Positions 48,285 to 62,783 of a stretch of 64,000 bases of DNA are shown one piece after another. Position 1 is the first letter of the stretch; the number at the start of each line of letters is the position of its first letter. The notes under the pieces are model-generated. The model was not told where the DNA came from. It saw only the letters and a program-made list of their open reading frames with translations, and did not search any database. The position numbers and the translations under genes were made by a program. This DNA comes from Flavobacterium ammoniigenes. Its GTDB lineage: Bacteria; Bacteroidota; Bacteroidia; Flavobacteriales; Flavobacteriaceae. The stretch lies in contig NZ_AP025184.1 of assembly GCF_020886055.1 (NCBI RefSeq), forward strand, positions 868,001 through 932,000. The letters run 5' to 3'.

Positions 48285-48313
48285 TCCAATGGTCAAAACT
48301 TTTGACCATTGGA
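48285..48313 (+). repeat. Perfect inverted repeat between susD and the susE-like gene
   Basis: TCCAATGGTCAAAA (48285-48298) and TTTTGACCATTGGA (48300-48313) are exact complements. No T-run follows on the plus strand (AAAATAAATT), so it is a poor terminator and better read as an RNA-stabilising or processing hairpin. Confidence 0.65.
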
Positions 48314-48329
48314 AAATAAATTAATAATT

Positions 48330-49487
48330 ATGAAAAAAATATATTTAAGTTTAATTTTAGTAGCAGGAATACTATCAAGTTTAGTTTCTTGTTCAGATGA
48401 TCTATTAGATCCAGTTGCTGCAAAAGGAGATGCTATTGTACTTTCTGCACCAACAGGTGGTACCTATGCTTTATCAGCTTCTACCGCTTCTGCAACTGCC
48501 TTTACAGTGAAGTGGACCTCTTCTACTTTTGGATATTCAGCTGCAGCAAGATATACATTACAAGTTATCAAAAGCACAGGTAATTTTAATGCACCTGGAA
48601 CTTTTCCATTAGGTGACTACGGTGTAGCAACTTCCATTAATTTAGAAAAAGCAATTACTAACAGACAATTAAATGCAGCTTTATTAGGAGCTGGTGGTCC
48701 AATTGGAGCATCACAAGCATACAAAGTACGTGTTGTTGGAAGTCCATTAAACCAATCTTCTTCAACTGTTACAGCCTATGAAGTTATTTCAAATGAAATT
48801 ACAATTACTGCTACTGCTTTTGATACCTATGATGAGTTTGCTAGATTATATGTACCTGGAAATTACCAAGGAGCTAGTGGTTATGGCAACAACTGGTCTC
48901 CAGATAGTCCTAGTGTAGCTAAATTGTTCTCTGCTGGGAATAATGGTGTTTATGAGGGATTTGTTTGGATGAACGATGCAAATCCAGAATTCAAATTTAC
49001 TCCAGTGCCATCTTGGTCAGGGGATAAAGGAGAATCTAACGGTTCAGGTGCTTTTTCTGGACAATTAGGAACTTCTAGTAACATTAAACCTTCAGCTGGG
49101 GCAGGTACTTATTTCTTTAATATAAACTGGAATACAGGTGCTTATACAATGGATAAAAGACAAGTATCAATTATTGGTGCAGCTACTCCAAATGGATGGG
49201 GTAATGGAACTCCTATGACATTTGACACGAATCCAAGTTCGCCTTATTACCAAATGTACACCATCACTTTAACTTTGGCTAAGGACGAATTCTTAATTCG
49301 TTTAAAAGACGATTGGTCAGTTAAAATGGGGACTCTTTCAGGAAATACTGAAAACACTACCACAGGTGGTCAATATAAAATCAAACTTGGAGGAGGTAAC
49401 ATGAAAGTGCCAACTGCGGGTACCTATAAAGTTGTTTTAGATATCAGAAACTCTGCTAACTATAACATTCGATTAATGCCACAATAA
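48330..49487 (+). CDS. susE: SusE-like starch-binding lipoprotein
   Basis: 385 residues from the ATG at 48330, which gives signal peptide and lipobox SLVSC; a TTG seven codons earlier is unlikely. The N-terminal about 150 residues form a SusE-type Ig domain (LSAPTGGTYALSAS...TAFTVKWTSS). After that come two carbohydrate-binding repeats of the SusE/SusF kind: one with FVWMNDANPEFKFTPVPSW and one with ISIIGAATPNGWGNGT-like wording (here VSIIGAATPNGWGNGTPM). It holds starch at the cell surface without cutting it. It follows susD after a hairpin and is itself followed by a terminator. Confidence 0.9.
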   Translation: MKKIYLSLILVAGILSSLVSCSDDLLDPVAAKGDAIVLSAPTGGTYALSASTASATAFTVKWTSSTFGYSAAARYTLQVIKSTGNFNAPGTFPLGDYGVATSINLEKAITNRQLNAALLGAGGPIGASQAYKVRVVGSPLNQSSSTVTAYEVISNEITITATAFDTYDEFARLYVPGNYQGASGYGNNWSPDSPSVAKLFSAGNNGVYEGFVWMNDANPEFKFTPVPSWSGDKGESNGSGAFSGQLGTSSNIKPSAGAGTYFFNINWNTGAYTMDKRQVSIIGAATPNGWGNGTPMTFDTNPSSPYYQMYTITLTLAKDEFLIRLKDDWSVKMGTLSGNTENTTTGGQYKIKLGGGNMKVPTAGTYKVVLDIRNSANYNIRLMPQ

Positions 49488-49502
49488 ACAGTAGTATGTA
49501 AT

Positions 49503-49539
49503 AAAAAGCACTAAATTTGTATAATTAAGTGCTTTTTTT
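49503..49539 (+). terminator. Terminator after the susE-like gene
   Basis: AAAAGCACT and AGTGCTTTT arms (49504-49512 and 49528-49536) with an imperfect inner stem AATT/AATT and a long T-run after. It separates susCDE from the amylase gene. Confidence 0.78.
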
Positions 49540-49564
49540 GTTTTAACTAACCAACAATACACCA

Positions 49565-52500
49565 ATGAAAAAAATTTTACTAACTTTTTTAATTCTTCTT
49601 GGTTGCCGTTCTTTTGCTCAACAGCAAACGGCTACCTATAGCGTGAGTCCTGCCGCTTTTGAGGAAAACACATCGATTACGGTTACCATTAACGGGAGTA
49701 GTATCGATGAAGCTGCTTGGGGAGTTACTGGCAATGTGTTGTACATGTGGGCTTGGGCATTTGATTTAGGTGGAGTTACTCAAAAAGGGACACCCTTGAA
49801 TGGTACTTGGAATAATTCGGATGAAGCAAGTAAATTTACTTACAATCAGGCCAATGATACCTACACCAAAACCTTTACGCCAACAACCTATTACAACACA
49901 ACAGGAATTGGAAAAATTGGATTTTTGATTAAAGCCAAAGACGGAACAGGAGACAAAAAATCGCAAGATATCTTAGTTGAGGTAGGTTCTTTTCAAGTTA
50001 ATCTAACAGCACCATTACAAAATAGTGCGACCATTATTAATTCGGGTGCTAATTTTACAATTACTGCTACTAATACCAATGGAAATGCAAGTTATAATTT
50101 GAAATCGAATGGAGTGAGTATTCATACCAACGGTTCGACTTCAAGTTATACTTTTACACAATCCAATATTACGAGTAATCAGAATTACGAATTAGAAGTG
50201 CTTCAAGGAACAACTACCATTACTAAAAAGTTTTCGGTAATTGTTAATCCAGGTGCTAATACACAAGCCATGCCTACTAATTTAGTAGACGGGATAAACT
50301 ATAATTCAACAGATGCTACAAAAGCTACCTTGGTTTTGGATGCACCTTTAAAAGATTTTGTATATGTAGCGGGAAGTTTCAATAATTGGCAACCTACCAA
50401 TGCACATGCCATGCTAAAAGATCCAACTACTGGAAAATTCTGGTTGGAATTAACTGGTTTAACTTCAGGGTCAAATTATACCTACCAATATTGGGTTGTA
50501 GATGCTACGCCAATTGCAGGAACGCCAGCCATGGTAAAAACAGCCGATCCCTATTCGACTTTAGTTTTATCTCCTTATGACGATCCAACTATCCCAGCTG
50601 CATCCTATCCAAACTTACCAGTTTATCCAACAGGTCAAGAACGTGAAGTAACTGTTTTACAAACTGGGCAAACTCCTTATGCATGGAGTACTGCGACTAC
50701 CAATTTTGTTAAACCAGCTAAGGAAAAATTAGTGGTGTATGAATTGTTGGTCCGTGATTTTGACGCTAATCGAAATTTTCAATCCGTAATTGATAAATTA
50801 GATTATTTTAAAAATCTTAAAATTAATGCGATTCAATTGATGCCTGTAATGGAATTTGAAGGCAATGAAAGTTGGGGATACAATACCGCTTATCACATGG
50901 CTTTGGATAAATTTTATGGGACTTCAAATAAATTGAAAGAGTTAATTGATAAATGCCATCAAAATGGTATTGCTGTTATTTTAGATGTGGCTTTGAACCA
51001 TGCGTTTGGCAGAAATCCTATGCTCAGAATGTGGATGAATGATCCTGATGGTGACGGTTGGGGAAGCCCTTCGACCGAAAATCCCTATTTCAATACAGTG
51101 GCAAAACACAGTTATAGTGTAGGGGAAGATTTTAACCATCAACAACCACGAACTCAAAATTATACAAAACGGGTTATTAAACATTGGATTGAAGAATTCA
51201 AAATTGATGGATTCCGTTGGGATTTGACTAAAGGATTTACTCAAGAATGTACTGCCGGGGATGACAATTGTACCAATGGATACCGTGCAGATCGTGTCGC
51301 GCTTCTAAAGTCGTATGCTGATTATTCATGGAGTTTAGACCCAACACATTACACCATTTTTGAACATTTAGGAACCGATGCTGAGGAGAAGGAATGGGCT
51401 AATTATAGAATTTCCGAATCGCCTAGTAAAGGAGTGATGTTGTGGGGTAAAATGACGACCGAATACAATGAACTTTCTATGGGATATACCGCTAATATTG
51501 CTAGAATGAATAGTTCTAGTAGAGGATTTACGAATCATCGTTTGATGGGGTATGCCGAAAGCCATGATGAGGAACGATTGATGTATAAGAACTTGCAGTT
51601 TGGAAATTCAGCAAACACAGCTCATAACGTAAAAACGTTGAACACTGCTTTGTCAAGAATGTCAGCTATTGGAGCCGTATCATTATTAGTTCCAGGGCCA
51701 AAAATGATTTGGCATTTTGGAGAATTAGGCTATGACGATTCTATTTTCACTTGTAATAATGGAACCGTTAATTCACAATCGGATACAGCTACAGGTGATT
51801 GTAAATTAGATACAAAACCACAAATACAATGGACCAATAATTGGTTAGCCAATGCTAATCGATTCAAAATCTATTCGGATTGGGCTAAAATGATTCGCTT
51901 AAAAACAGAAGAAGCCGTATTTTCTGGGACTGCAACCATAACTAATGCAAGTTCATTAGTGCAAACTATCAAAATTACCGATGCGGCACTTCCTGCTACT
52001 AGTTTAAAGGATGTAGTGATCTTGGCTAATTTCGATGTGACAAGCAAAAGTGTTCCCACAGGATTCCCTTATGCAGGTGAATGGTTTAATTTAATGGATA
52101 ATTCAACTTTGAATGTGGTCAATGTAAACGATCCAATCACCGTTTTACCAGGTCAGTTTAAAATTTACGGAAACAAACAAGCTTTTGGGGCGAATGCTGC
52201 TTTTGCATTACCTGCTGATAATTTTAGTATAGAATCTAGAGCGGAGACTTGTGCCAATAAAAATAATGGACAAATCGTAATTAATGCTGCTCAGACCTAT
52301 GCTTATGTAGCCACCATAAACGGGACCAATTATAATTTCACCAATAATAGTTTGACGATTTCTAATTTAGCGCCAGGTGTATATCCCGTTTGTATTTCTA
52401 TTCCGGGTAAAACCTTTGAACAATGTTATAGCTTAACAATTACTAGAGGTTCTTCCCTAGCTGGAAAATCATCAGTATCTTCAAATCTTGCCTCAGTGCA

Positions 52501-52903
52501 AATAACCGAGGGAACAGCTCCTTTTGAAGTTTTTGTTAATGGGTTGCCTCAATTTGAAACCTCGGCATCGAGTTTTTCAATTCCTGTAAAACAAGGCGAT
52601 TATTTAGAAATAAAAACAGCAAAAGCTTGCGAGGGGATTTATGCCACTAGCATAATGGATCCATTAAACGGTATTGCAGCGTATCCTAATCCAACTCATG
52701 GATTAATTGAAATTGCCATACCTACTCTTAAAACAGCCATTGCGATTGAATTGTATAATTTGAATGGGCAATTAATTTCAAAAGGGATCTATACTGTTTT
52801 GAATGGAAAAGTACAATTGAATTTAGAAAAAGAATCGGCTGGAGTGTATTTTGCAAAAGTACATTTAGATACTCCAATAAGTTTAACTATTGTAAAAGAA
52901 TAA
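49565..52903 (+). CDS. Multidomain GH13 alpha-amylase with T9SS sorting tail
   Basis: 1112 residues. Signal peptide ends SFAQ near residue 19; it is not a lipoprotein. Next come an N-terminal Ig/CBM-like part (about 20-230), a CBM48-like module (about 245-330, FVYVAGSFNNWQP), and the GH13 barrel (about 380-790): region I VILDVALNHAFG, nucleophile Asp553 in DGFRWDLTKG, acid/base Glu600 in FEHLG and third Asp668 in ESHDEER. After linker domains the last about 75 residues (YPNPTHG at 1040, GVYFAKVHLD) are a type A T9SS sorting domain, so it is secreted or anchored through the type IX system. It starts the attack on starch outside the cell, the role SusG has in Bacteroides. Confidence 0.93.
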   Translation: MKKILLTFLILLGCRSFAQQQTATYSVSPAAFEENTSITVTINGSSIDEAAWGVTGNVLYMWAWAFDLGGVTQKGTPLNGTWNNSDEASKFTYNQANDTYTKTFTPTTYYNTTGIGKIGFLIKAKDGTGDKKSQDILVEVGSFQVNLTAPLQNSATIINSGANFTITATNTNGNASYNLKSNGVSIHTNGSTSSYTFTQSNITSNQNYELEVLQGTTTITKKFSVIVNPGANTQAMPTNLVDGINYNSTDATKATLVLDAPLKDFVYVAGSFNNWQPTNAHAMLKDPTTGKFWLELTGLTSGSNYTYQYWVVDATPIAGTPAMVKTADPYSTLVLSPYDDPTIPAASYPNLPVYPTGQEREVTVLQTGQTPYAWSTATTNFVKPAKEKLVVYELLVRDFDANRNFQSVIDKLDYFKNLKINAIQLMPVMEFEGNESWGYNTAYHMALDKFYGTSNKLKELIDKCHQNGIAVILDVALNHAFGRNPMLRMWMNDPDGDGWGSPSTENPYFNTVAKHSYSVGEDFNHQQPRTQNYTKRVIKHWIEEFKIDGFRWDLTKGFTQECTAGDDNCTNGYRADRVALLKSYADYSWSLDPTHYTIFEHLGTDAEEKEWANYRISESPSKGVMLWGKMTTEYNELSMGYTANIARMNSSSRGFTNHRLMGYAESHDEERLMYKNLQFGNSANTAHNVKTLNTALSRMSAIGAVSLLVPGPKMIWHFGELGYDDSIFTCNNGTVNSQSDTATGDCKLDTKPQIQWTNNWLANANRFKIYSDWAKMIRLKTEEAVFSGTATITNASSLVQTIKITDAALPATSLKDVVILANFDVTSKSVPTGFPYAGEWFNLMDNSTLNVVNVNDPITVLPGQFKIYGNKQAFGANAAFALPADNFSIESRAETCANKNNGQIVINAAQTYAYVATINGTNYNFTNNSLTISNLAPGVYPVCISIPGKTFEQCYSLTITRGSSLAGKSSVSSNLASVQITEGTAPFEVFVNGLPQFETSASSFSIPVKQGDYLEIKTAKACEGIYATSIMDPLNGIAAYPNPTHGLIEIAIPTLKTAIAIELYNLNGQLISKGIYTVLNGKVQLNLEKESAGVYFAKVHLDTPISLTIVKE

Positions 52904-52905
52904 AC

Positions 52906-53610
52906 ATGAGAAATATTTTATATCTAGCGAGTATGGCCTTTTTGTTTGTCTCTTGTGGAGGAGGTGGTTCAGATGGAGCTACTCCAACACCAGAACCAGC
53001 AAATACAGCACCATCTGTTCCAAGCTTAGTTGCGCCAACAAATAGTTTGTTGTGTATTAATAACGTAGTTACTTTTGAATGGGGAGCTTCAACAGATGCC
53101 GAAAATAACCCAATAGTATACCAATTACAAATTGCGACAGATAATCAGTTTAGCCAAATTGTAAGTACAAATGAAGTGTCTTCTAGAACCCAAGCCGTTA
53201 CATTAGACAAAGGCAAAGCCTATTATTGGAGAGTGAAAGCTACTGATAGTAAAAATGCATCAAGTGCGTATTCAGGAACTTATAGTTTTTATACCGAAGG
53301 TGCGGCTGTAGCCAATCATTTGCCTTTTTTGCCAGAGATAATACAACCAGAAACTAACACTACAATTAGCGGTGTTACAGCTACCTTAAAATGGTTTGCT
53401 TCTGATGTTGATGCTTCTGATGTGCTGACATATGATGTATATTTTGGAACTGCGAATCCTCCAACGATAAAAGTCGCAGAAAATAGGACTACTCCAGTTT
53501 ATGAGGCTACTTCATTACAAGCCGCAACCCAATATTATTGGAGAGTGGTAGTTAAAGACAATAAAGGAGGAGCAACAACGGGACAAGTTTGGAACTTCAG
53601 AACTAATTAG
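52906..53610 (+). CDS. Surface lipoprotein with two fibronectin-III-like domains
   Basis: 234 residues. Lipobox LFVSC with Cys17 followed by a Gly/Ser/Pro linker (GGGGSDGATPTPEP), then two FnIII-like beta domains: about 38-130 and 138-234, each with the Y.WRV.A/V.D pattern (YYWRVKATDSK, YYWRVVVKDNKGG). It begins only 2 bp after the amylase stop, so it is made together with it. No catalytic motif. I infer a non-catalytic surface partner, possibly sugar binding or amylase docking, in the place where SusF stands in Bacteroides, but it is not a SusF homologue by sequence. Confidence 0.82.
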   Translation: MRNILYLASMAFLFVSCGGGGSDGATPTPEPANTAPSVPSLVAPTNSLLCINNVVTFEWGASTDAENNPIVYQLQIATDNQFSQIVSTNEVSSRTQAVTLDKGKAYYWRVKATDSKNASSAYSGTYSFYTEGAAVANHLPFLPEIIQPETNTTISGVTATLKWFASDVDASDVLTYDVYFGTANPPTIKVAENRTTPVYEATSLQAATQYYWRVVVKDNKGGATTGQVWNFRTN

Positions 53611-53631: not shown

Positions 53632-53666
53632 AAAAAAGCTACTCCCCGAAAGGAGTAGCTTTTTTT
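53632..53666. terminator. Strong bidirectional terminator between starch locus and acs
   Basis: A-run plus GCTACTCC (to 53645), 6-nt loop, GGAGTAGC plus T-run (53652-53666). Stops both the starch operon and the convergent acs operon. Confidence 0.93.
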
Positions 53667-53693: not shown

Positions 53694-55601
53694 CTAAATT
53701 TTGCCATCTTTGATTTCATCCACAATTTCTGGATTTAATAAAGTGGTAATGTCTCCAAAATTGGAGAAGTCGCCTTCTGCAATTTTACGCAAGATTCTAC
53801 GCATGATTTTTCCAGATCTTGTTTTTGGTAAACCGGATACGAATTGGATTTTGTCCAATTTGGCAATCGGTCCAATGTGGTCTGAAATATGTTGGTTAAT
53901 CTCTTTGCTTAAGTTTTCACGGTCGCGGTATTCACCAGATTCTTTTAAGATAACAAATCCGTATAGTGCATTCCCTTTGATATCATGAGGAAAACCTACA
54001 ATCGCCGATTCAGCCACTGCTGGGTGTTCATTGATGGCATCTTCAATTGGTGCAGTACCTAAATTGTGTCCTGAAACAATTACTACATCATCGACACGAC
54101 CTGTGATTCGGTAATACCCCACTTCATCACGTAAGGCTCCATCACCGGTAAAATATTTGCCTGGGAAAGCACTAAAATAAGTGTCTTTATAACGTTGGTG
54201 ATCGCCCCAAATGGTTCTGGCAATACTTGGCCAAGGGAATTTGATACACAAACTTCCAGTTACTTGATTGCCTTCAATTTCATTTCGTTTTTCATCCATT
54301 AAAACTGGTTGAATTCCAGGTAGGGGAAGGGAAGCATAGGTTGGTTTTGTTGGTGTTACAAATGCCAAAGGCGAGATCATGATACCGCCCGTTTCGGTTT
54401 GCCACCAAGTGTCAACGACAGGACATCTTTTTCCACCAACGTGATCGTTGTACCAGTGCCAAGCTTCTTCGTTGATAGGCTCGCCAACCGAACCAATAAC
54501 TTTTAATGATTGTAATGGATATTTTTGAACGTATTCAATGCTTTCTTTAGCCAAAGCACGAATGGCTGTTGGTGCTGTATAGAATTGAGTAACTTGGTGT
54601 TTTTCGATTACTTCCCAGAAACGACTAAAGTCAGGATACGAAGGAACTCCTTCAAAAATTACGGTTGTCGCTCCGTTCAATAAGGGTCCGTACAGAATGT
54701 ACGAGTGACCAGTAATCCAACCAATATCGGCAGTACACCAGAAAATATCATTCTCTTCGTAACTAAATACATTTTTAAAAGTGTAAGCCGTATACACCAT
54801 ATATCCAGCGGTTGTATGTACCATTCCTTTTGGTTTTCCTGTAGAACCTGAAGTATAAAGGATAAATAAAGGATCTTCAGCATCCATAATTTCGGCAACG
54901 TTGGTGTTCATTGCATCGTCTAGAAGAGGTTGTAACCATTGGTCACGACCGGCTTTCATATTGACGTTGGTGTTGGTTCTTTTGGCCACCAATACTTTTT
55001 CAACTGTTGGACATTTTTCTAAGGCTTCGTCCACAATGCCTTTTAAGTCAATGGCTTTGTTACCACGGTAACTTCCATCGGATGTGATGACCATTTTACA
55101 TTCGCAATCATTGATTCTTGAAGCTACTGCCGAAGCAGAAAACCCTGCAAAAACAACCGAGTGAATCGCTCCAATTCTGGCACATGCTAAAACCGAAACC
55201 GCTAATTCAGGAATCATTGGTAAATAAATGCAGACGCGATCCCCTTTTTTGACGCCTTGCTCGCGCAAGACATTGGCCATTTTTGAGACTCGTTCGTACA
55301 ATTCATTATATGTAATATGAAGCGCTTCTTCTTTTGGATCATTCGGTTCAAAAATGATAGCCGTTTTTTCACCTCTTTTAGCAAGGTGTCTGTCGATACA
55401 GTTTTTTGTAATATTGACTTTGGCATTGGTAAACCATTTAATTTCGGCTTCGGCCATATTGAAATCAATTACATTGTCCCATTCTTGGTACCAAGTAAAG
55501 TTTTCAGAGGCAATTCGGTCCCAGAATTTTTTAGGTTCACGAATTGATTTTTTGTAATGTTTGAAATATTCTTCTAGATTTTCAATTTTATAATAACTCA
55601 T
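53694..55601 (-). CDS. acs: Acetyl-CoA synthetase
   Basis: 635-residue AMP-forming ligase that activates acetate to acetyl-CoA. The AMP-binding loop is LYTSGSTGKPKGMVHT, the adenine region VDTWWQTETGG, and near the C-terminus PKTRSGKIMRRILRK has the lysine that protein acetyltransferases modify to turn Acs off. It is the last gene of an operon headed by a CrbS/CbrA-type sensor; in Vibrio and Pseudomonas that sensor's target is acs, so the linkage is meaningful. It begins 36 bp after the propionyl-CoA synthetase-like gene. Confidence 0.95.
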   Translation of the reverse strand: MSYYKIENLEEYFKHYKKSIREPKKFWDRIASENFTWYQEWDNVIDFNMAEAEIKWFTNAKVNITKNCIDRHLAKRGEKTAIIFEPNDPKEEALHITYNELYERVSKMANVLREQGVKKGDRVCIYLPMIPELAVSVLACARIGAIHSVVFAGFSASAVASRINDCECKMVITSDGSYRGNKAIDLKGIVDEALEKCPTVEKVLVAKRTNTNVNMKAGRDQWLQPLLDDAMNTNVAEIMDAEDPLFILYTSGSTGKPKGMVHTTAGYMVYTAYTFKNVFSYEENDIFWCTADIGWITGHSYILYGPLLNGATTVIFEGVPSYPDFSRFWEVIEKHQVTQFYTAPTAIRALAKESIEYVQKYPLQSLKVIGSVGEPINEEAWHWYNDHVGGKRCPVVDTWWQTETGGIMISPLAFVTPTKPTYASLPLPGIQPVLMDEKRNEIEGNQVTGSLCIKFPWPSIARTIWGDHQRYKDTYFSAFPGKYFTGDGALRDEVGYYRITGRVDDVVIVSGHNLGTAPIEDAINEHPAVAESAIVGFPHDIKGNALYGFVILKESGEYRDRENLSKEINQHISDHIGPIAKLDKIQFVSGLPKTRSGKIMRRILRKIAEGDFSNFGDITTLLNPEIVDEIKDGKI

Positions 55602-55637
55602 GGTATTCTATTTTATATGTTCTAATTCTGTTTATTA

Positions 55638-57536
55638 TTATTTGCTATAACTTCCAATTTTGTATTTTTTTAATACTTCGATAATTTCACCTACAATCTC
55701 CTCGTCATCGATAGTAGAAGGAATTTGATAGTCTTCTCCGTCAGTAATGCTTCGCATTAATTTGCGTAGAATTTTTCCGGAACGAGTTTTTGGTAAACGC
55801 TGCACAATCACCACATTACGTAGGGATGCAACTGCACCAATTTGTTGGCGCACTAGTTTAACTATTTCTTGTTCCAATTGGAAATGCTCTATGTCTTCTC
55901 CGTGTTTGATTACTACCAAGGCCAAAGGAGTTTGTCCTTTTAATTCGTCATGTATTCCAATAACGGCGCATTCAGCCACTGACGAATGCGATGCAACAAT
56001 TTCTTCCATTTCAGCGGTAGAAAGACGGTGACCCGCTACATTGATTACGTCATCAACACGTCCGGTTATGAAAATATATTCATTGTCATCTTTGAAACCT
56101 CCATCACCTGAAAAATAATAACCAGGGAATTTTTCTAAATAACCCGCTTTAAATCTCGGGTTGTCTTTCCATAAATCCAATAAGGTTCCTGGAGGCAATG
56201 GTAATTTAATTACTACGTAGCCTTCTTCATTGGGACCCACTTCAGTTCCGTTTTCACTAAAAATTCGAATGTTGTATCCTGGAACTGCTTTTCCAACAGA
56301 TCCTGGTTTGATAGGCAAATATTCTATTCCCATCATATTGGCAACGATTGGCCAACCTGTTTCTGTTTGCCACCAGTGATCAATTGCTGGAACGGGAATA
56401 TGTTCTTGGTACCATTCGAGTGTGGCTACATCGCAACGCTCTCCGGCCAAGAATTGAATTTTCAACGAACTCAAATCGTATTTTTTGATAAATTCTCCGT
56501 TTGGATCTTCTTTTTTGATGGCACGAATGGCGGTTGGAGCTGTAAACATTACACTTACTTTGTGCTCTTCAATAATTCGCCAGAAAGTACTGGCATCGGG
56601 AGTTTTGATTGGTTTTCCTTCGAAAATAATCGTTGTATTTCTATTAATTAGCGGTCCGTATACAATATAACTATGCCCTACAACCCAGCCCACATCAGAG
56701 GCAGCCCAAAATACTTCTCCAGGTTTGGCGTTGTACACGTTTTGCATAGAGTATTTTAGCGCAGTAGCATAACCACCCGAATCACGCACGATTCCTTTGG
56801 GTTTACCAGTGGTTCCCGAGGTATACAATACATACAAAGGATGAGTAGAATTTAATGGTACGCAATCGGCTTCTTCAGATCCATAAACCAAAGCATCATA
56901 ATCTACATCGTATTTTTTAAAGGGCACTTTTGCTCCTAATTTTCTGTTAAGAATGATCACTTTTTTAGGTTTGTGCTCAGCCAATTGAATCGCTTCGTCA
57001 ACTAAAGGTTTGTAAGCAATCAATCGGTCAATTTCAATTCCCGATGAAGCTGTAATAATCGCTCTAGGTTTGCAATCGTCAATTCGGATCGCTAATTCGT
57101 GAGGAGCAAATCCCCCAAAAACTACTGAATGCGTAACACCAATTCGCGCACAAGCCAACATGGCAAAGGCAGCTTGCGGAATCATCGGCATATAAATAAC
57201 GGTGGTATCGCCTTTTTTTAAACCCAAAGATTGCATTCCTCCAGCGAGTTTAGCCACTTCGGTTTTTACTTCTAAGAAGGTGTATTTTTTAATAGTTTGT
57301 GTCACAGGCGAATCATAAATTAAAGCGATTTCATCGCCATAACCATCTTCAATGTGTTTGTCTAATGCCAAATAGCATACGTTTAATTCGCCGTCTTTAT
57401 ACCAAAGCGGATATCCATTTTCATCCGAAGATAAAATGGATTCGGGTTTTGTAAACCAACGTATAGCGTCGGCTTGATCTTTCCAGAATGCTTCTGGATT
57501 TTCAGTACTTGCGGTATAGGTATCTTTGTAATTCAT
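55638..57536 (-). CDS. prpE: Propionyl-CoA synthetase-like acyl-CoA ligase
   Basis: 632-residue AMP-forming ligase, a second Acs-type enzyme. It opens with YKDTYTASTENPEAFW, close to the PrpE form (Y...Y..S...P..FW), has VLYTSGTTGKPKGIVRD with the PrpE-like Arg-Asp after the loop, VVGHSYIVYGPL, DHWWQTETGWPI and PKTRSGKILRKLMRS. These details favour propionate over acetate, but 3-hydroxypropionate or other short acids are possible. It lies between the response-regulator gene (27 bp) and acs (36 bp), so all three are co-transcribed. Confidence 0.88.
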   Translation of the reverse strand: MNYKDTYTASTENPEAFWKDQADAIRWFTKPESILSSDENGYPLWYKDGELNVCYLALDKHIEDGYGDEIALIYDSPVTQTIKKYTFLEVKTEVAKLAGGMQSLGLKKGDTTVIYMPMIPQAAFAMLACARIGVTHSVVFGGFAPHELAIRIDDCKPRAIITASSGIEIDRLIAYKPLVDEAIQLAEHKPKKVIILNRKLGAKVPFKKYDVDYDALVYGSEEADCVPLNSTHPLYVLYTSGTTGKPKGIVRDSGGYATALKYSMQNVYNAKPGEVFWAASDVGWVVGHSYIVYGPLINRNTTIIFEGKPIKTPDASTFWRIIEEHKVSVMFTAPTAIRAIKKEDPNGEFIKKYDLSSLKIQFLAGERCDVATLEWYQEHIPVPAIDHWWQTETGWPIVANMMGIEYLPIKPGSVGKAVPGYNIRIFSENGTEVGPNEEGYVVIKLPLPPGTLLDLWKDNPRFKAGYLEKFPGYYFSGDGGFKDDNEYIFITGRVDDVINVAGHRLSTAEMEEIVASHSSVAECAVIGIHDELKGQTPLALVVIKHGEDIEHFQLEQEIVKLVRQQIGAVASLRNVVIVQRLPKTRSGKILRKLMRSITDGEDYQIPSTIDDEEIVGEIIEVLKKYKIGSYSK

Positions 57537-57563
57537 GGTGATAATTCTGTAAATAAAATGGGA

Positions 57564-57929
57564 CTAATTTTCGATCAATTCATGTACTTGTTCTACTAAT
57601 TTTTTAGCAGAAAATGGCTTGACGACATATAAATTAGCTCCTAAATTCATCCCTTTTTCAATATCACTTTCTTTATTTTTTGCCGAAAGAAAAATCACTT
57701 TGCAATGTGCTAAACGTTCGTCTTTTTTAATTTCTTCTAAGGTGGCATAACCGTCAACCATTGGCATCATAACATCAAGAATGATGACATCGGGTAATTG
57801 TTTTTCTAAAATTTCCAATGCTTCTTGTCCATCACGCGCAATGAATACTTCAAAATTATTTTTTTTGAAAGTGTATTCTAAAGCCATTACGATGTTCGGC
57901 TCGTCATCTACGATTAGTATCTTTTTCAT
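57564..57929 (-). CDS. Single-domain response regulator (CheY-like)
   Basis: 121 residues from ATG 57929 consisting only of a receiver domain: acidic pair Asp8-Asp9 (VDDEP), phospho-acceptor Asp52 (ILDVMMP), Ser82 and Lys104 (VVKPF). A longer frame reaching 58034 would run back into the kinase gene by 101 bp and begins with sequence unlike any receiver. There is no DNA-binding output domain, unlike CrbR/CbrB. It starts 4 bp after the sensor kinase gene, so it is the obvious partner; how it affects transcription is unknown. Confidence 0.92.
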   Translation of the reverse strand: MKKILIVDDEPNIVMALEYTFKKNNFEVFIARDGQEALEILEKQLPDVIILDVMMPMVDGYATLEEIKKDERLAHCKVIFLSAKNKESDIEKGMNLGANLYVVKPFSAKKLVEQVHELIEN

Positions 57930-57933
57930 CTTC

Positions 57934-60639
57934 TTAGTTGTTTTCGGTTGTGTTGTAGTTGGGTAATGTGAAGACAAAAGTGGCTCCTTCTTTGACATTG
58001 TTTTCGGCCCAAATGGCGCCTTTATGATGTTCAATAATTTGTTTGCAAATGGCTAATCCAAGTCCGCTACCAATAGGTTTTTTGACATTTTGATTTCTTG
58101 ACTGATAGAATTTATCAAAGATGGCTTCAAAATCTTCGCTTTTGATTCCTTTGCCATTATTGTGAATGGTGACGGCAACATTGGTTTCGTTTTCTGTAAT
58201 TTGAATACGTATTAAACCGTCTGTTTCAGCAGAAAATTTAATTGCATTCGACACCAAATTATGGATGACTTGGATGATGCGTTCTTCATCATAAAAGGCT
58301 TTGATTTCTTTGCCGGCATCCTCAAAAACTAGTTGTATTTTTTTATTTGCAATCAGTTGTTTAACGGATTCTAATGTTTTTTCTACTGTTAATGCAATAT
58401 TATTTCTGGAGAGATAGATCTTCTGTTTTCCTGTTTCGAATTTTTCTAAATCCAATATTTTATCAATCAAGCGATTTAAGCGATCCGATTCAGAAATGAT
58501 ATTTTGCAAGAATTGTTTGCGTACTTCATAAGGCACCTCTTCATCGTCATGTAGTATTTCACTGGCAGCTCTGATGGCTGTAATTGGAGTTCGTAATTCG
58601 TGTGTAACCGTGTCTAAAAATTCATCTTTTTGAATATCTTTTTTAACCAGCTCTTCATTGGCCACTTTTAACTGCTCTGATATTTTCTGTAATTCGTTTG
58701 AAGTATCAGTCAATTTTTTATTGATGATAATATTTTCTTTGGATTCTTCCAAAATACGTAATAATTCAGGCAAACTTATTTCGTCTTCTTTTACCACACT
58801 GGCGATTAAGATTTTGGCGGAAGCCGTACCAATATGTCCTGTCAATAAATTTTCGGCAAATTTGATAAACCGTGCGTCTGCAGTCGCTACATTTTTGTCA
58901 ATATTGTATTTCAAGTTGAAAATGGACAAGGCGCGTTTGGTTCTTTCTTCTCCAAGAAATCGCAGTAATACTTTTTCGATATCCGAAACATAGGCAGTTC
59001 CCTTCCAAACAAATGCATCTTCGTGATTGGTAATGTATTTATCGATATCGACAAACATTTCGGCATAATTACGTTCTCTATAATTACCTTTGAAACTTAC
59101 AGAAACAGCAGCAAATCCGATGGTATTGAAGAATAAACTCCAAAATAATGCATGCGGAATAGGATCTAAATAATCCAATCCAAATAGCTGAAATGGTTTC
59201 AATAATTCGATTCCCCAAGGGCCTTCTTTGAAGAATAAACTAGTCGAATTAGTAATTCCCAAAGCATAAGGGGCAAGTAGGGTGTAGCAACAAATTCCAA
59301 ATCCAATTACTATTCCTGTAATGGCACCTTTGTTAGATCCTCTTCTCCAAAATAATGCGCCAAAAAAGGCAGGTGCTAATTGCGAAATGATTACAAAGGA
59401 TACGAGTCCGATGGATACTAATGAGTAATCTAAAATAAAGATTCGATAAATGGCATAGGCCAAAATGATTAATAAAAAGATACCAATTTTCCTACTTCGT
59501 ACGATTCGATTGTTATTTTTTTCTTGTGATTTATTTCTCAATCTTCCTACAAATCCGTACGGAATTAATAAGTTGTTACTGAGCATAGTCGCTAAGGCAA
59601 TTGAAGAAACAATAATCATTGAAATTGCCGCTGAAAACCCTCCTAAAAAGACCAGTACAGTAAGTGTATTATTGTTGAAAAATTGGGGAATTAATAAGGA
59701 ATAGGTATCGGAATTGAATCCTTTTCCTTCAAATAAAATGTTACCGCCCCAGGCGATTGGGAATACAAAAATATTAAACAACAATAGGTACAATGGGAAC
59801 AACCACATGGCAGTTTTAAGATGTGTTTCTTTGTTGTTTTCTACAATGGATGTGTGGAATTGTCTTGGTAATAAGAAAATAGCAAACATCGATAGGATAC
59901 AAAGAAAAAACCAGTTGATAGCCTCATTTAAACCTCCGATGGAATTTTTCTTTGCAAAATTTTCTAATCCTGAAGCTTTAGTGTAAATATCATCAAATCC
60001 ATCAAATACAAAGTAGGTTACATAGATTCCAATAATTAAAAAGAAAACTAATTTTAGTACTGATTCTAATGCGACAGCAGTAACGATACCTCGCCTTTTT
60101 TCAGAAGCATCAACATAGCGTGTACCGTAATAAGAGGCAAAAAGTGCTAATGCAATACAGGCATAAGTGGTGGTGTCAAAAAAAATGTTAGAACTGGATT
60201 CGGTTTTGGTAACAATATGAAAAGTGTCCGAGATGGACTTTAGTTGCAAAGCAATGTAAGGCACAATACCAAAGATACACACGATGGTAACTAAGGCGCC
60301 TAAGAATCTATCATTGCCGTATCTCAAAGAAATGAAATCAGCAATACTAGAAATTTTATTTACTCTAGAAATTCGGATGATTTTTTTCAAAATAATCATC
60401 CAAGTAGGAATGATAATTATGGGACCTAAATAAATAGGCAAATAACTTAAACCGGAATTAGCTGCAACGCCAATACTTCCGTAATACGTCCAAGCGGTGC
60501 AGTACACAGCTAACGAAAGAGAATAGATGTAGGGATTATTAGTCCATTTGGAATGGTCCCTTTTTTCAGCCCAATAGGCGATATAAAAAAGGATTAGCAT
60601 GTACAATGCTACAATAAACAAAAGGCCAAAACTACTCAT
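57934..60639 (-). CDS. Hybrid SSF symporter / STAC / histidine kinase, CrbS/CbrA type
   Basis: 901-residue membrane sensor. Residues 1-515 are a sodium/solute symporter (SLC5) domain with about 13 helices (YCTAWTYYGSIG near 46, FGALFWRRGSNKGA at 426). A STAC domain follows (about 540-620; the run AENLLTGHIGTASAKILIASVV is nearly the STAC signature), then a coiled linker, the dimerisation domain with His680 in DTVTHELRTP, and the ATPase domain: N box VIHNLVSNAIKFS, G1 HNNGKGI, F FDKFYQ, G2 GSGLGLAICK. CrbS and CbrA have this order. It overlaps a small two-helix gene by 8 bp and is followed by the receiver and two acyl-CoA synthetases. No PAS or receiver domain in cis. Confidence 0.93.
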   Translation of the reverse strand: MSSFGLLFIVALYMLILFYIAYWAEKRDHSKWTNNPYIYSLSLAVYCTAWTYYGSIGVAANSGLSYLPIYLGPIIIIPTWMIILKKIIRISRVNKISSIADFISLRYGNDRFLGALVTIVCIFGIVPYIALQLKSISDTFHIVTKTESSSNIFFDTTTYACIALALFASYYGTRYVDASEKRRGIVTAVALESVLKLVFFLIIGIYVTYFVFDGFDDIYTKASGLENFAKKNSIGGLNEAINWFFLCILSMFAIFLLPRQFHTSIVENNKETHLKTAMWLFPLYLLLFNIFVFPIAWGGNILFEGKGFNSDTYSLLIPQFFNNNTLTVLVFLGGFSAAISMIIVSSIALATMLSNNLLIPYGFVGRLRNKSQEKNNNRIVRSRKIGIFLLIILAYAIYRIFILDYSLVSIGLVSFVIISQLAPAFFGALFWRRGSNKGAITGIVIGFGICCYTLLAPYALGITNSTSLFFKEGPWGIELLKPFQLFGLDYLDPIPHALFWSLFFNTIGFAAVSVSFKGNYRERNYAEMFVDIDKYITNHEDAFVWKGTAYVSDIEKVLLRFLGEERTKRALSIFNLKYNIDKNVATADARFIKFAENLLTGHIGTASAKILIASVVKEDEISLPELLRILEESKENIIINKKLTDTSNELQKISEQLKVANEELVKKDIQKDEFLDTVTHELRTPITAIRAASEILHDDEEVPYEVRKQFLQNIISESDRLNRLIDKILDLEKFETGKQKIYLSRNNIALTVEKTLESVKQLIANKKIQLVFEDAGKEIKAFYDEERIIQVIHNLVSNAIKFSAETDGLIRIQITENETNVAVTIHNNGKGIKSEDFEAIFDKFYQSRNQNVKKPIGSGLGLAICKQIIEHHKGAIWAENNVKEGATFVFTLPNYNTTENN

Positions 60640-60826
60640 AATATCGTTTAATGATTAGGTAGGTCGTGCCAATTGAAAATATCCAAGCCGAAAATATATA
60701 GATGTATACAATTGGAAAACCTAAAAAAGGTTCAGCACTATCAAACAATAACAATAGCGGCATGTTCAACGCTAATACCATTAGCATTGAAAGAATAACC
60801 AGCTTTTGTTCGTGTCTTTTTTTCAT
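60632..60826 (-). CDS. Small two-helix membrane protein overlapping the sensor gene
   Basis: 64 residues: a basic start (MKKRHEQK), two hydrophobic stretches (about 9-29 and 35-58) and a basic end (IIKRYYE). I do not recognise the family. Its stop codon lies 8 bp inside the start of the symporter-kinase gene, pointing to translational coupling. Short two-helix partners are known next to SSF transporters (DUF485, DUF3311 proteins), and the small gene cbrX overlaps cbrA in Pseudomonas, so a subunit or coupling role is a fair inference. Confidence 0.8.
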   Translation of the reverse strand: MKKRHEQKLVILSMLMVLALNMPLLLLFDSAEPFLGFPIVYIYIFSAWIFSIGTTYLIIKRYYE

Positions 60827-61214: not shown

Positions 61215-62783
61215 TTAGTGTTTGTGAGAAGTGCTTTTACCATCTACATAAATAGCTCCGATAATGAAACAGATGGCTCCAATTATAATTGGGTACCAAA
61301 GTCCTTGTAAATACGGTTCAGCTACGGCAACTGCTTGACCAGCTTCTGTTGCTGCATCGTTTGCTTTGGTTGCTGCTGCCACTAATGAAGTAGCTACCGC
61401 AGGAAGCAATCCTCCAAAGATACCGTTACCAATATGGTATGGTAAAGACATCGAAGTATAACGAATTTTTGCAGGGAACAACTCTACTAAGAAAGCCGCT
61501 GTCGGTCCGTAAACTACAGTCACTAAGAAGATTTGAATGAAAACTAACCAAACCAAAGTCCATTTGTCTGATTCATTTACCACCATTGTTTTCTTAACTT
61601 CTACTTTTGGTTTTCCATCATCACCAATTTTAGCTACACCATTTTCTAAAGTTACAGTTTTAACTTCTTTCCAAGTCGCTCCGTCTGTAAATTCTTTGGT
61701 TGTTGTATACACTGAATCTAGTGCTTTTGCTTTGTTTTCTTTTGTCTCAGCAAGAACTACTGTTTTTGCTTCGATTTCAGTTTTATTTTTGATGCTTGTA
61801 GTTTCATACATTGCTCTATAAATAGGTCTGTAGGCCACAACGGCAATCAAAATACCAGCAAGCATTAACCATTTTCTACCAATTTTATCAGAAATCCATC
61901 CGAAGAATACAAAGAAAGGAGTAGCCATTAAAATTGCATACATCATAATGTCTCCCACTTGATCAGAAAGACCCATTACTTTTTCAATAAAACTCATAGC
62001 GTAGAATTGTCCAGTGTACCAAACTACACCTTGACCCATTACGATTCCAAATAAAGCTAACAATACAAATTTAAAGTTCAATTTGTTGCCAAAACTTTCT
62101 TTCAATGGATTTTTAGACGTTTTTCCTTCTGCTTTTACTTTTGCAAATTCAGGAGACTCGCTCATGTTTTTACGAATTAAGTAAGAAACTAGAATCATTA
62201 AGATAGATACCCAAAACGGAACTCTCCATCCCCAATCTTCAAAGGCTTCTTTGGACATAGCGCTTTTTGTAGCCATGATTACCATAAGAGAAACAAATAG
62301 ACCAATTGTAGCTGTAGTTTGAATCCAAGAAGTCCAATATCCTCTTTGACCTGGTCCAGCATGTTCTGCTACATAAGTCGCAGCACCACCGTATTCCCCA
62401 CCAAGAGCAAGACCTTGAAGTAAACGTAGAACCAATACTAAGGTTGGTGCCATAAATCCAATAGTTTCATAACTTGGGATACATCCAATTAAGAAAGTAG
62501 CTCCCCCCATTAATACTAAAGTAACCATGAACGTATATTTACGTCCGATTAAATCGCCTAGACGTCCAAAGAATAAGGCTCCAAAAGGACGCACAACAAA
62601 ACCTGCAGCAAATGTTGCCAAAGTAGATAAGAAGGCAGCAGTTGGATTGTCTGAAGGGAAAAATTTAGTTGAAATAATAGTAGCTAAACTACCAAAGATG
62701 TAAAAGTCATACCATTCGATCATGGTACCTACTGAAGACGCTCCAATTACGGTCCATAAGGAGCTTTTTTTGTGTTGATTCAT
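61215..62783 (-). CDS. MFS transporter, metabolite:H+ symporter type, with long loop
   Basis: 522-residue inner-membrane transporter of the MHS branch (relatives move 2-oxoglutarate, shikimate, proline/betaine or citrate). Recognised by MIEWYDFYIFG in helix 1, GRLGDLIGRKYTF in loop 2-3, LQGLALGGEYGGAATYVAEHA and GWISDKIGRKW in loop 8-9. Between helices 9 and 10 (about residues 325-406) is an unusual hydrophilic insertion of some 80 residues, rich in Lys, Glu, Thr and Val, which should face the periplasm. Flanked by a porin gene (37 bp) and a two-helix protein (33 bp). Substrate most likely an organic acid, by family and neighbours. Confidence 0.9.
   Translation of the reverse strand: MNQHKKSSLWTVIGASSVGTMIEWYDFYIFGSLATIISTKFFPSDNPTAAFLSTLATFAAGFVVRPFGALFFGRLGDLIGRKYTFMVTLVLMGGATFLIGCIPSYETIGFMAPTLVLVLRLLQGLALGGEYGGAATYVAEHAGPGQRGYWTSWIQTTATIGLFVSLMVIMATKSAMSKEAFEDWGWRVPFWVSILMILVSYLIRKNMSESPEFAKVKAEGKTSKNPLKESFGNKLNFKFVLLALFGIVMGQGVVWYTGQFYAMSFIEKVMGLSDQVGDIMMYAILMATPFFVFFGWISDKIGRKWLMLAGILIAVVAYRPIYRAMYETTSIKNKTEIEAKTVVLAETKENKAKALDSVYTTTKEFTDGATWKEVKTVTLENGVAKIGDDGKPKVEVKKTMVVNESDKWTLVWLVFIQIFLVTVVYGPTAAFLVELFPAKIRYTSMSLPYHIGNGIFGGLLPAVATSLVAAATKANDAATEAGQAVAVAEPYLQGLWYPIIIGAICFIIGAIYVDGKSTSHKH

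Follow-up and report, generated by a model that had tools for sequence, protein, structure and literature searches.

A truncated transposase as candidate DNA-binding output of a putative acetate/propionate sensor cluster in Flavobacterium

Genes at the locus

We analysed a window of 64,000 nucleotides from the 2.26 Mb genome of Flavobacterium ammoniigenes (contig NZ_AP025184.1, positions 868,001–932,000). Five minus-strand genes follow one another with spacings of −8, +4, +27 and +36 bp, in the order and with the gaps given in an earlier note on this DNA: a small membrane protein that we call X (60826–60632, 64 amino acids, two hydrophobic stretches by eye), an SLC5-STAC histidine kinase (60639–57934, 901 amino acids), a receiver-only protein (57929–57564, 121 amino acids counted from the ATG at 57929; the Pfam and NCBIfam searches used a version with one additional upstream codon), a PrpE-like acyl-CoA synthetase (57536–55638, 632 amino acids) and the acetyl-CoA synthetase Acs (55601–53694, 635 amino acids). 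Gene order and domain content bear out the note's reading that a sensor kinase of this type, a receiver and two short-chain acyl-CoA synthetases are packaged together. Minus-strand hairpins flank the genes, one terminator-like and 3′ of acs (53665–53632, 15 pairs; folded stretch −22.4 kcal/mol), the other terminator- or attenuator-like (60932–60912; folded stretch −17.4 kcal/mol) in the gap between X and an uptake half that lies upstream of the kinase block. The five genes form a hairpin-bounded block, conserved both in Flavobacterium and in many further Bacteroidota, which belongs to a larger conserved module.

The uptake half comprises ZHTH (a DNA-binding candidate described below), a porin, an MFS importer and a DUF6814 protein. 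The DUF6814 small membrane protein (61181–60960, minus strand) is encoded next to the MFS importer (62783–61215, minus strand), which is closest to metabolite/H+ symporters (TIGR00883, 354.9, below the cut-off of 443.45), and the DcaP-like porin (64000–62821, minus strand) is cut by the end of the window. ZHTH (139 amino acids) is encoded outside the window, at 932194–932613 of the contig (window-equivalent 64194–64613), about 107 bp upstream of the porin, and the intergenic stretch between the two carries a conserved element (window-equivalent 64170–64193). The earlier note did not include the porin and the DNA-binding gene with which the cluster continues; most of that part lies outside the window.

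The kinase carries HisKA (670–737, with His680) and HATPase_c (784–894) domains that both pass Pfam, as does the REC domain of the receiver protein; its SSF match is slightly under the Pfam cut-off (19.8 versus 22.8). A profile of the kinase family (ten relatives, N-terminal 650 residues each) matches the SLC5-STAC chain of CbrA (10ed) over profile positions 4–617 (E = 8e-113), and this match together with HisKA and HATPase_c identifies the protein as an SLC5/STAC histidine kinase. It gave no match in Pfam (E 0.01) to PAS, which CbrA has between STAC and HisKA, and no REC, and ends after HATPase_c; a hybrid relative (L318) does give REC with the same Pfam library. All 120 aligned sequences carry the equivalent of Lys196, as do the eight proteobacterial relatives and CbrA, so that this residue marks the class and not acetate. 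In CbrA, Lys196 has been proposed to govern or drive proton-dependent transport steps (PMC13022988). The kinase is 94–97% identical to those of several Flavobacterium MAGs in the named collection and 94% identical to that of F. ammonificans, the nearest species-named record, in a collection from which near-identical records may be absent.

X gave no match in Pfam or NCBIfam, and a search for homology to CbrX found nothing among PDB sequences up to E = 10. By analogy, it resembles CbrX in its size and in its overlap with the kinase gene: it is a small membrane protein, with two helices by eye, encoded upstream of and overlapping the gene of an SLC5-STAC kinase. Every one of the 74 genus-set loci with a called X shows an overlap of exactly 8 bp; elsewhere this holds for 19 of 30 loci, and the remainder span −50 to +87. 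CbrX is described as a peptide that binds CbrA and is dispensable for growth on histidine (PMC13022988); in another study, it is described as needed for CbrA translation through coupling (PMC6591292). The receiver protein conserves the phospho-acceptor Asp and has no output domain, REC being the only domain found in Pfam. Among the 120 surveyed loci, the kinase partner is receiver-only in 111 (those measured), with 115–125 residues between the conserved start and the stop.

Acs passes the equivalog model TIGR02188 (956.6 versus 724.95). The PrpE-like protein lies under the propionate–CoA ligase equivalog cut-offs (740.6 versus 955; 698.9 versus 827.4) and under that of the acetate ligase TIGR02188 (657.5 versus 724.95), and above the acetate–CoA ligase subfamily model NF001208 (666.4 versus 657); because it fails the propionate and acetate equivalog cut-offs, we leave its substrate unassigned. 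A second Acs copy, 90% identical, is encoded elsewhere in the genome beside genes resembling ilv genes, and 100 of 101 genus genomes have an Acs, irrespective of whether they carry the kinase. Isocitrate lyase was not found in the F. ammoniigenes genome, which makes growth on acetate as sole carbon doubtful; acetate probably supplements other carbon. Two methylmalonyl-CoA mutase matches in the same genome represent a possible route for propionate, which could feed the TCA cycle.

Conservation, importer slot and control DNA

The gene-neighbourhood survey that the earlier note had proposed covered 120 loci: 80 Flavobacterium or relative records (best 80 of 91) and 40 from further genomes, the latter being the non-genus matches of the family and phylum scans except G477, plus six genus loci (L190–L195) that may duplicate records among the genus 80. 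Loci with enough flank were counted, on tblastn matches at E ≤ 1e-4. The block recurs beyond chance. In the genus set, X was present in 78/78 loci, REC in 79/79, Acs and/or PrpE in 64/67 (Acs 64, PrpE 55; both absent in L107, L137 and L154) and ZHTH in 68/70. The extra genus loci gave X and REC in 6/6, ZHTH in 6/6 and Acs or PrpE in 4/4; other loci at the level of Flavobacteriaceae gave X, REC and Acs in 13/13 each, PrpE in 11/13 and ZHTH in 12/12; and in other families of the order and class, X, REC, Acs or PrpE, and ZHTH were each found in 10/10. Distant families of the phylum retained X (9/11) and REC (10/11), with Acs in 4/11, PrpE in 0/11 and ZHTH in 0/10; in these loci, a protein of about 315–719 amino acids, kinase-like by eye, often follows the receiver, in some cases with an exonuclease-like fusion. 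The kinase itself is patchily distributed, occurring in 37 of 101 genomes of the genus sample, in 13 of 120 of the family sample and in 32 of 296 of the phylum sample (E ≤ 1e-100; at most 9, 7 and 3 candidates per genome, respectively, were scored in the scans).

Three unrelated importer types occupy one slot of the uptake half: SatP, DUF4212 with SSF, and MFS with DUF6814. Across 70 testable genus-set loci, the slot holds MFS in 45, SSF in 18 and SatP in 5, with none found in 2. The SSF importer and its small partner pass TIGR03648 and TIGR03647, and one SatP copy passes the NCBIfam model 'acetate uptake transporter' (NF038013, 256.1 versus 50). We infer acetate as the substrate of the cluster mainly because the carriers that replace one another next to Acs are unrelated and include an acetate carrier.

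Of 104 importer–X gaps, 63 contain a terminator-like hairpin, where base shuffling of the gaps predicts 1.1. A second count with slightly different limits gave 61 such gaps, in 31 of which fewer than 30 bp separate the end of the hairpin from X, a space that would hardly fit a promoter of its own; in the window, the distance is 85 bp. The Bacteroidota promoter pattern TTG-N17-20-TAnnTTTG was absent from the importer–X gaps (0/104 versus 0.8 expected). The hairpins at this place suggest partial read-through. A transcript end between the kinase and prpE, which the earlier note had named as evidence against its reading, left little sign when checked by hairpins, which are almost missing inside the block (1 of 72 receiver–PrpE gaps and 0 of 79 PrpE–Acs gaps) and lie within 120 bp 3′ of 69 of 90 Acs genes. 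Positive feedback on the kinase, PrpE and Acs, which the note had also raised, stays plausible because in those 31 loci the hairpin leaves so little space for a separate promoter before X.

The conserved element is about 24 bp long (consensus CTATAGTACTTTACACATATATAT) and occupies the ZHTH–porin gap, directly behind the stop codon of ZHTH. It scored above threshold in 71 of 79 loci, with a matrix built from these same sites. A scan of the 120 loci on both strands gave 76 matches of at least 12, of which 72 were at the ZHTH–porin place (71 listed before a porin; L092 placed by position) and 4 elsewhere, and none before X, PrpE or Acs. SatP loci fall under the threshold, probably through a one-base spacing difference; by eye, the element is visible in three of them (L113, L114 and L117). 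In genomes in which the two halves are separated, the element stays with the uptake half (score of 26.9 in L326; by eye in L325) and none was found before X. A search of the whole F. ammoniigenes genome gave 9 matches versus 8 in a reversed control, with a fixed spacing that misses the genome's own copy (one extra base) and makes this a weak test; as the element is not enriched, no wider regulon is visible.

A transposase-derived DNA-binding candidate

Judged by its profile matches and alignments, ZHTH is a truncated IS1-type transposase that has retained the zinc ribbon and HTH and lost the catalytic core. It passes the NCBIfam model NF050000 (IS1/IS1595 zinc ribbon; 40.1 versus 28) and gives a partial match to the IS1 transposase model NF033558, covering profile positions 1–111 of 199 (79.3 bits versus 100). 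In Pfam, the F. ammoniigenes copy lies under the cut-offs of Zn_ribbon_InsA (20.5 versus 26.1) and HTH_23 (23.1 versus 24.6), and only the HTH-type Terminase_5 passes (20.8 versus 20.3); a homologue (L168) passes HTH_28 and HTH_23. ZHTH has the zinc ribbon and HTH of IS1-family transposases and, unlike them, breaks off where the catalytic domain begins: it aligns with two annotated IS1 transposases up to this point and ends soon after. A complete catalytic domain is absent by both the NF033558 profile and the alignment, and the Asp at the start of that domain, which we take to be a catalytic residue, is not kept. The last stretch of the protein (GMIITELGDKFMLIKWERFK and variants) shows strong conservation from family to family, unlike what would be expected of a dead remnant.

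Of 98 testable loci of the same class, 96 have ZHTH upstream of the kinase. Among 101 genus genomes, 37 have the kinase and 36 have ZHTH, with one ZHTH match per genome; ZHTH is present in 36 of the 37 genomes with the kinase and in 0 of the 64 without (E ≤ 1e-15). The single kinase-bearing genome without it (G150) is a 590-contig assembly in which the kinase match covers residues 120–900 only. In the phylum sample of 296 genomes, 21 have both genes, 11 the kinase only and 5 ZHTH only. The co-occurrence gives Fisher p = 1e-26 (genus) and 9e-20 (phylum), values that ignore relatedness. As to the ZHTH-only genomes, the contig ends inside the cluster in one (L291), and in another (L290), about 2 kb separate ZHTH from an Acs and the 18 kb that were read contain no kinase; the remainder are two matches with stop codons and one weak match in a 400-amino-acid frame.

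Two of the 70 genus-set loci, those of F. aciduliphilum and F. zepuense, have the kinase locus without ZHTH. Both genomes encode an 86% identical ZHTH elsewhere, where it heads a porin–MFS–DUF6814 unit, a pattern seen in these two cases only. The kinase half of F. zepuense has no PrpE or Acs nearby.

Proposed circuit, alternatives and related systems

We hold it about evenly balanced whether the two halves form one cluster for short-chain carboxylate sensing, uptake and activation—with acetate as the most likely substrate and perhaps propionate—in which the signal passes from kinase to receiver to ZHTH. X would be seated on the kinase's SLC5 domain in the way that CbrX is on CbrA. Binding of the substrate, whether or not it is also transported, would be relayed through STAC to the kinase, which would phosphorylate the separate receiver; the receiver, directly or through an intermediate, would alter the activity of ZHTH, a presumably domesticated IS1 transposase remnant acting at the element upstream of the porin and importer. 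Read-through past the hairpin would yield more kinase, PrpE and Acs, and so a positive feedback, and PrpE and Acs would trap the acid as its CoA ester. The transposase-derived regulator candidate is the unusual part of the module; co-occurrence supports the kinase acting through ZHTH, which we consider to be probably the DNA-binding output of the acetate/propionate sensor module. The full circuit—a two-component system in which the kinase and its CbrX-like subunit signal to the receiver, and a domesticated transposase remnant serves as DNA-binding output at the element, switching on acetate/propionate uptake and activation in Flavobacterium and further Bacteroidota—is put forward tentatively, as one that we would sooner doubt than affirm.

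ZHTH could instead be an independent local regulator of the porin–importer unit that responds to a metabolite through its C-terminal remnant, with the kinase and receiver acting elsewhere, for example on transporter or enzyme activity. The strong conservation of the C-terminal stretch fits such a regulator, as do the genomes with separated halves, in which the uptake half keeps both the element and ZHTH and no element precedes X, and the X–kinase–receiver units that occur without ZHTH. Eleven of the 32 kinase-bearing genomes in the phylum sample and the plasmid-borne Paracoccus units described below lack ZHTH, which counts against the kinase–ZHTH link, and the receiver must have another output there. 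Against an independent regulator stand the genus distribution of ZHTH (36/37 kinase-bearing versus 0/64 kinase-less genomes) and its retention in both genomes in which the halves are unlinked, and we consider it somewhat unlikely.

In a circuit closer to CrbS/CrbR, the receiver would relay phosphate or compete, and an unlinked LuxR-type regulator would turn on acs. CrbS of Vibrio has been described as an orphan kinase whose own REC is dispensable or inhibitory (PMC5436829), and the F. ammoniigenes genome has four GerE matches, two of them in proteins that look like REC-LuxR by eye. Neither of these two genes adjoins acetate genes in the approximately 3 kb read (by eye)—one lies between synthetase-like and primase-like genes, the other beside a TPR-kinase-like gene—and the kinase is not a hybrid and has a receiver-only partner in the 111 loci measured; we find this arrangement improbable. 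It is possible that the SSF domain imports the acid itself, as the earlier note had suggested, and both the invariance of Lys196 (120/120) and the uptake of histidine described for the transporter domain of CbrA (PMC7918813) are consistent with this. That the SLC5 domain is the physiologically important importer, with the kinase mainly reporting flux, seems very improbable to us: a dedicated importer is encoded next door here and adjoins in 68 of 70 testable genus-set loci, Lys196 is a class marker shared with the eight proteobacterial relatives and CbrA, and chimaeras in P. fluorescens are described as indicating signalling independent of transport (PMC5715377).

Experiments on SLC5-STAC kinases have mostly concerned Proteobacteria, as described in PMC7918813. 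Here, one compact cluster brings together a kinase and its CbrX-like small protein, a receiver encoded on its own, importers of exchangeable type, the enzymes and a mobile-element-derived candidate switch. Because both halves are kept in two genomes in which they are unlinked, the link from kinase to ZHTH is testable with few gene deletions. If true, a transposase would here have been co-opted into a two-component system, in a phylum that is widespread; among the matches listed in our literature searches, there was no description of the cluster or of an IS1-derived bacterial regulator.

Several known systems share parts of this design. The CrbS/CrbR reading of the earlier note is borne out in part: an SLC5-STAC sensor kinase is present, and membership of CrbS/CrbR was rejected, given a kinase without fused REC and a receiver-only partner without HTH. 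CrbS is described as a hybrid that carries REC at its C-terminus and whose signal goes to CrbR, a regulator of the LuxR type (PMC5715377, PMC7918813). In CrbS/CrbR (MxtR/ErdR) of Vibrio and Pseudomonas, an SLC5-STAC kinase is likewise tied to control of acs and an acetate transporter, whereas here the receiver-only protein is encoded apart from the kinase, X accompanies them and the enzymes and importer lie in the same cluster. CbrX/CbrA/CbrB of Pseudomonas provides a small membrane protein whose gene overlaps that of the kinase (by 17 nt, according to PMC6591292, versus 8 bp here), the SLC5-STAC match to 10ed and Lys196; it differs in its SLC5 domain (30% identity), has a CbrA with PAS, which was not found here, and a sigma54-type CbrB, and is tied to histidine. 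RpuS/RpuR–mctP of Sinorhizobium fredii also has an SLC5-STAC kinase adjoining a monocarboxylate symporter gene pair, and differs, as described in PMC9100948, in its LuxR-type regulator, in responding to pyruvate and in having the transporter in a separate operon 220 bp away.

Relatives of the kinase are also found on plasmids (64 records, E ≤ 1e-30), those of Paracoccus and Cupriavidus being 36–42% identical among the matches listed. Plasmid units of both genera have the same core of X, kinase and receiver-only protein. Two Paracoccus records encode a DUF294-type protein, a small protein, the kinase, a receiver-size response regulator and an exonuclease-domain protein (domains tested for one of the two records), and a Cupriavidus record has much the same order, read by eye from unannotated frames, with an SSF-like frame upstream. 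In a third Paracoccus record, the receiver, small protein and kinase lie beside an ScfR-type short-chain acyl-CoA regulator. No ZHTH, PrpE or Acs was noted in the stretches read from these units. The receiver-only partner thus recurs in this branch, ZHTH, PrpE and Acs look like an addition of Bacteroidota, and the lack of ZHTH in these units counts against it as the ancestral output. One plasmid kinase of P. aeruginosa shows a PAS-plus-REC plan, the layout described for CrbS.

Second Acs copy

The F. ammoniigenes genome encodes a second acetyl-CoA synthetase (Acs; G000:C1:1798626-1800530, locus L289, where C1 is the contig carrying the cluster) that is 90% identical to the Acs of the cluster. 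Genes resembling ilv genes adjoin this copy. Despite the two Acs copies, no match to isocitrate lyase (PF00463) was obtained in the whole genome. Two Acs matches (counted per genome at E <= 1e-150) were found in 13 of the 101 genus genomes, and the kinase was present in all of these (13/13).

Surroundings and variants of the sensor genes

Convergent with acs lies a starch-use-like gene set (48309-53610) that comprises an alpha-amylase bearing a type 9 secretion tail, an Ig/fn3-like protein that matches SusE weakly and one lipoprotein-like gene; a hairpin at 53632-53665 could act for both acs and this set. In other family-level loci (L157, L159, L161-L164, L166 and L167), the interval between the receiver and PrpE/Acs genes contains an additional ORF of 72-76 aa, the L159 copy of which had no match in a Pfam search. 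One Paracoccus unit (L320:937-5559) consists of consecutive genes for an ScfR-type XRE regulator, a receiver-only protein, an X-like small protein and an SLC5-STAC kinase.

Importers

The MFS importer (61215-62783) carries an insert of approximately 70 residues, so that the match to its family falls into two separate parts. In some clusters, an SSF importer occupies the MFS place, as at L102:7976-9727, where it contains an EF-hand-like loop (DKNGDGKIQYYND). Uptake units also occur in tandem: at L096, porin-DUF4212-SSF is located immediately upstream of ZHTH-porin-MFS-DUF6814 (ZHTH, truncated IS1-type transposase).
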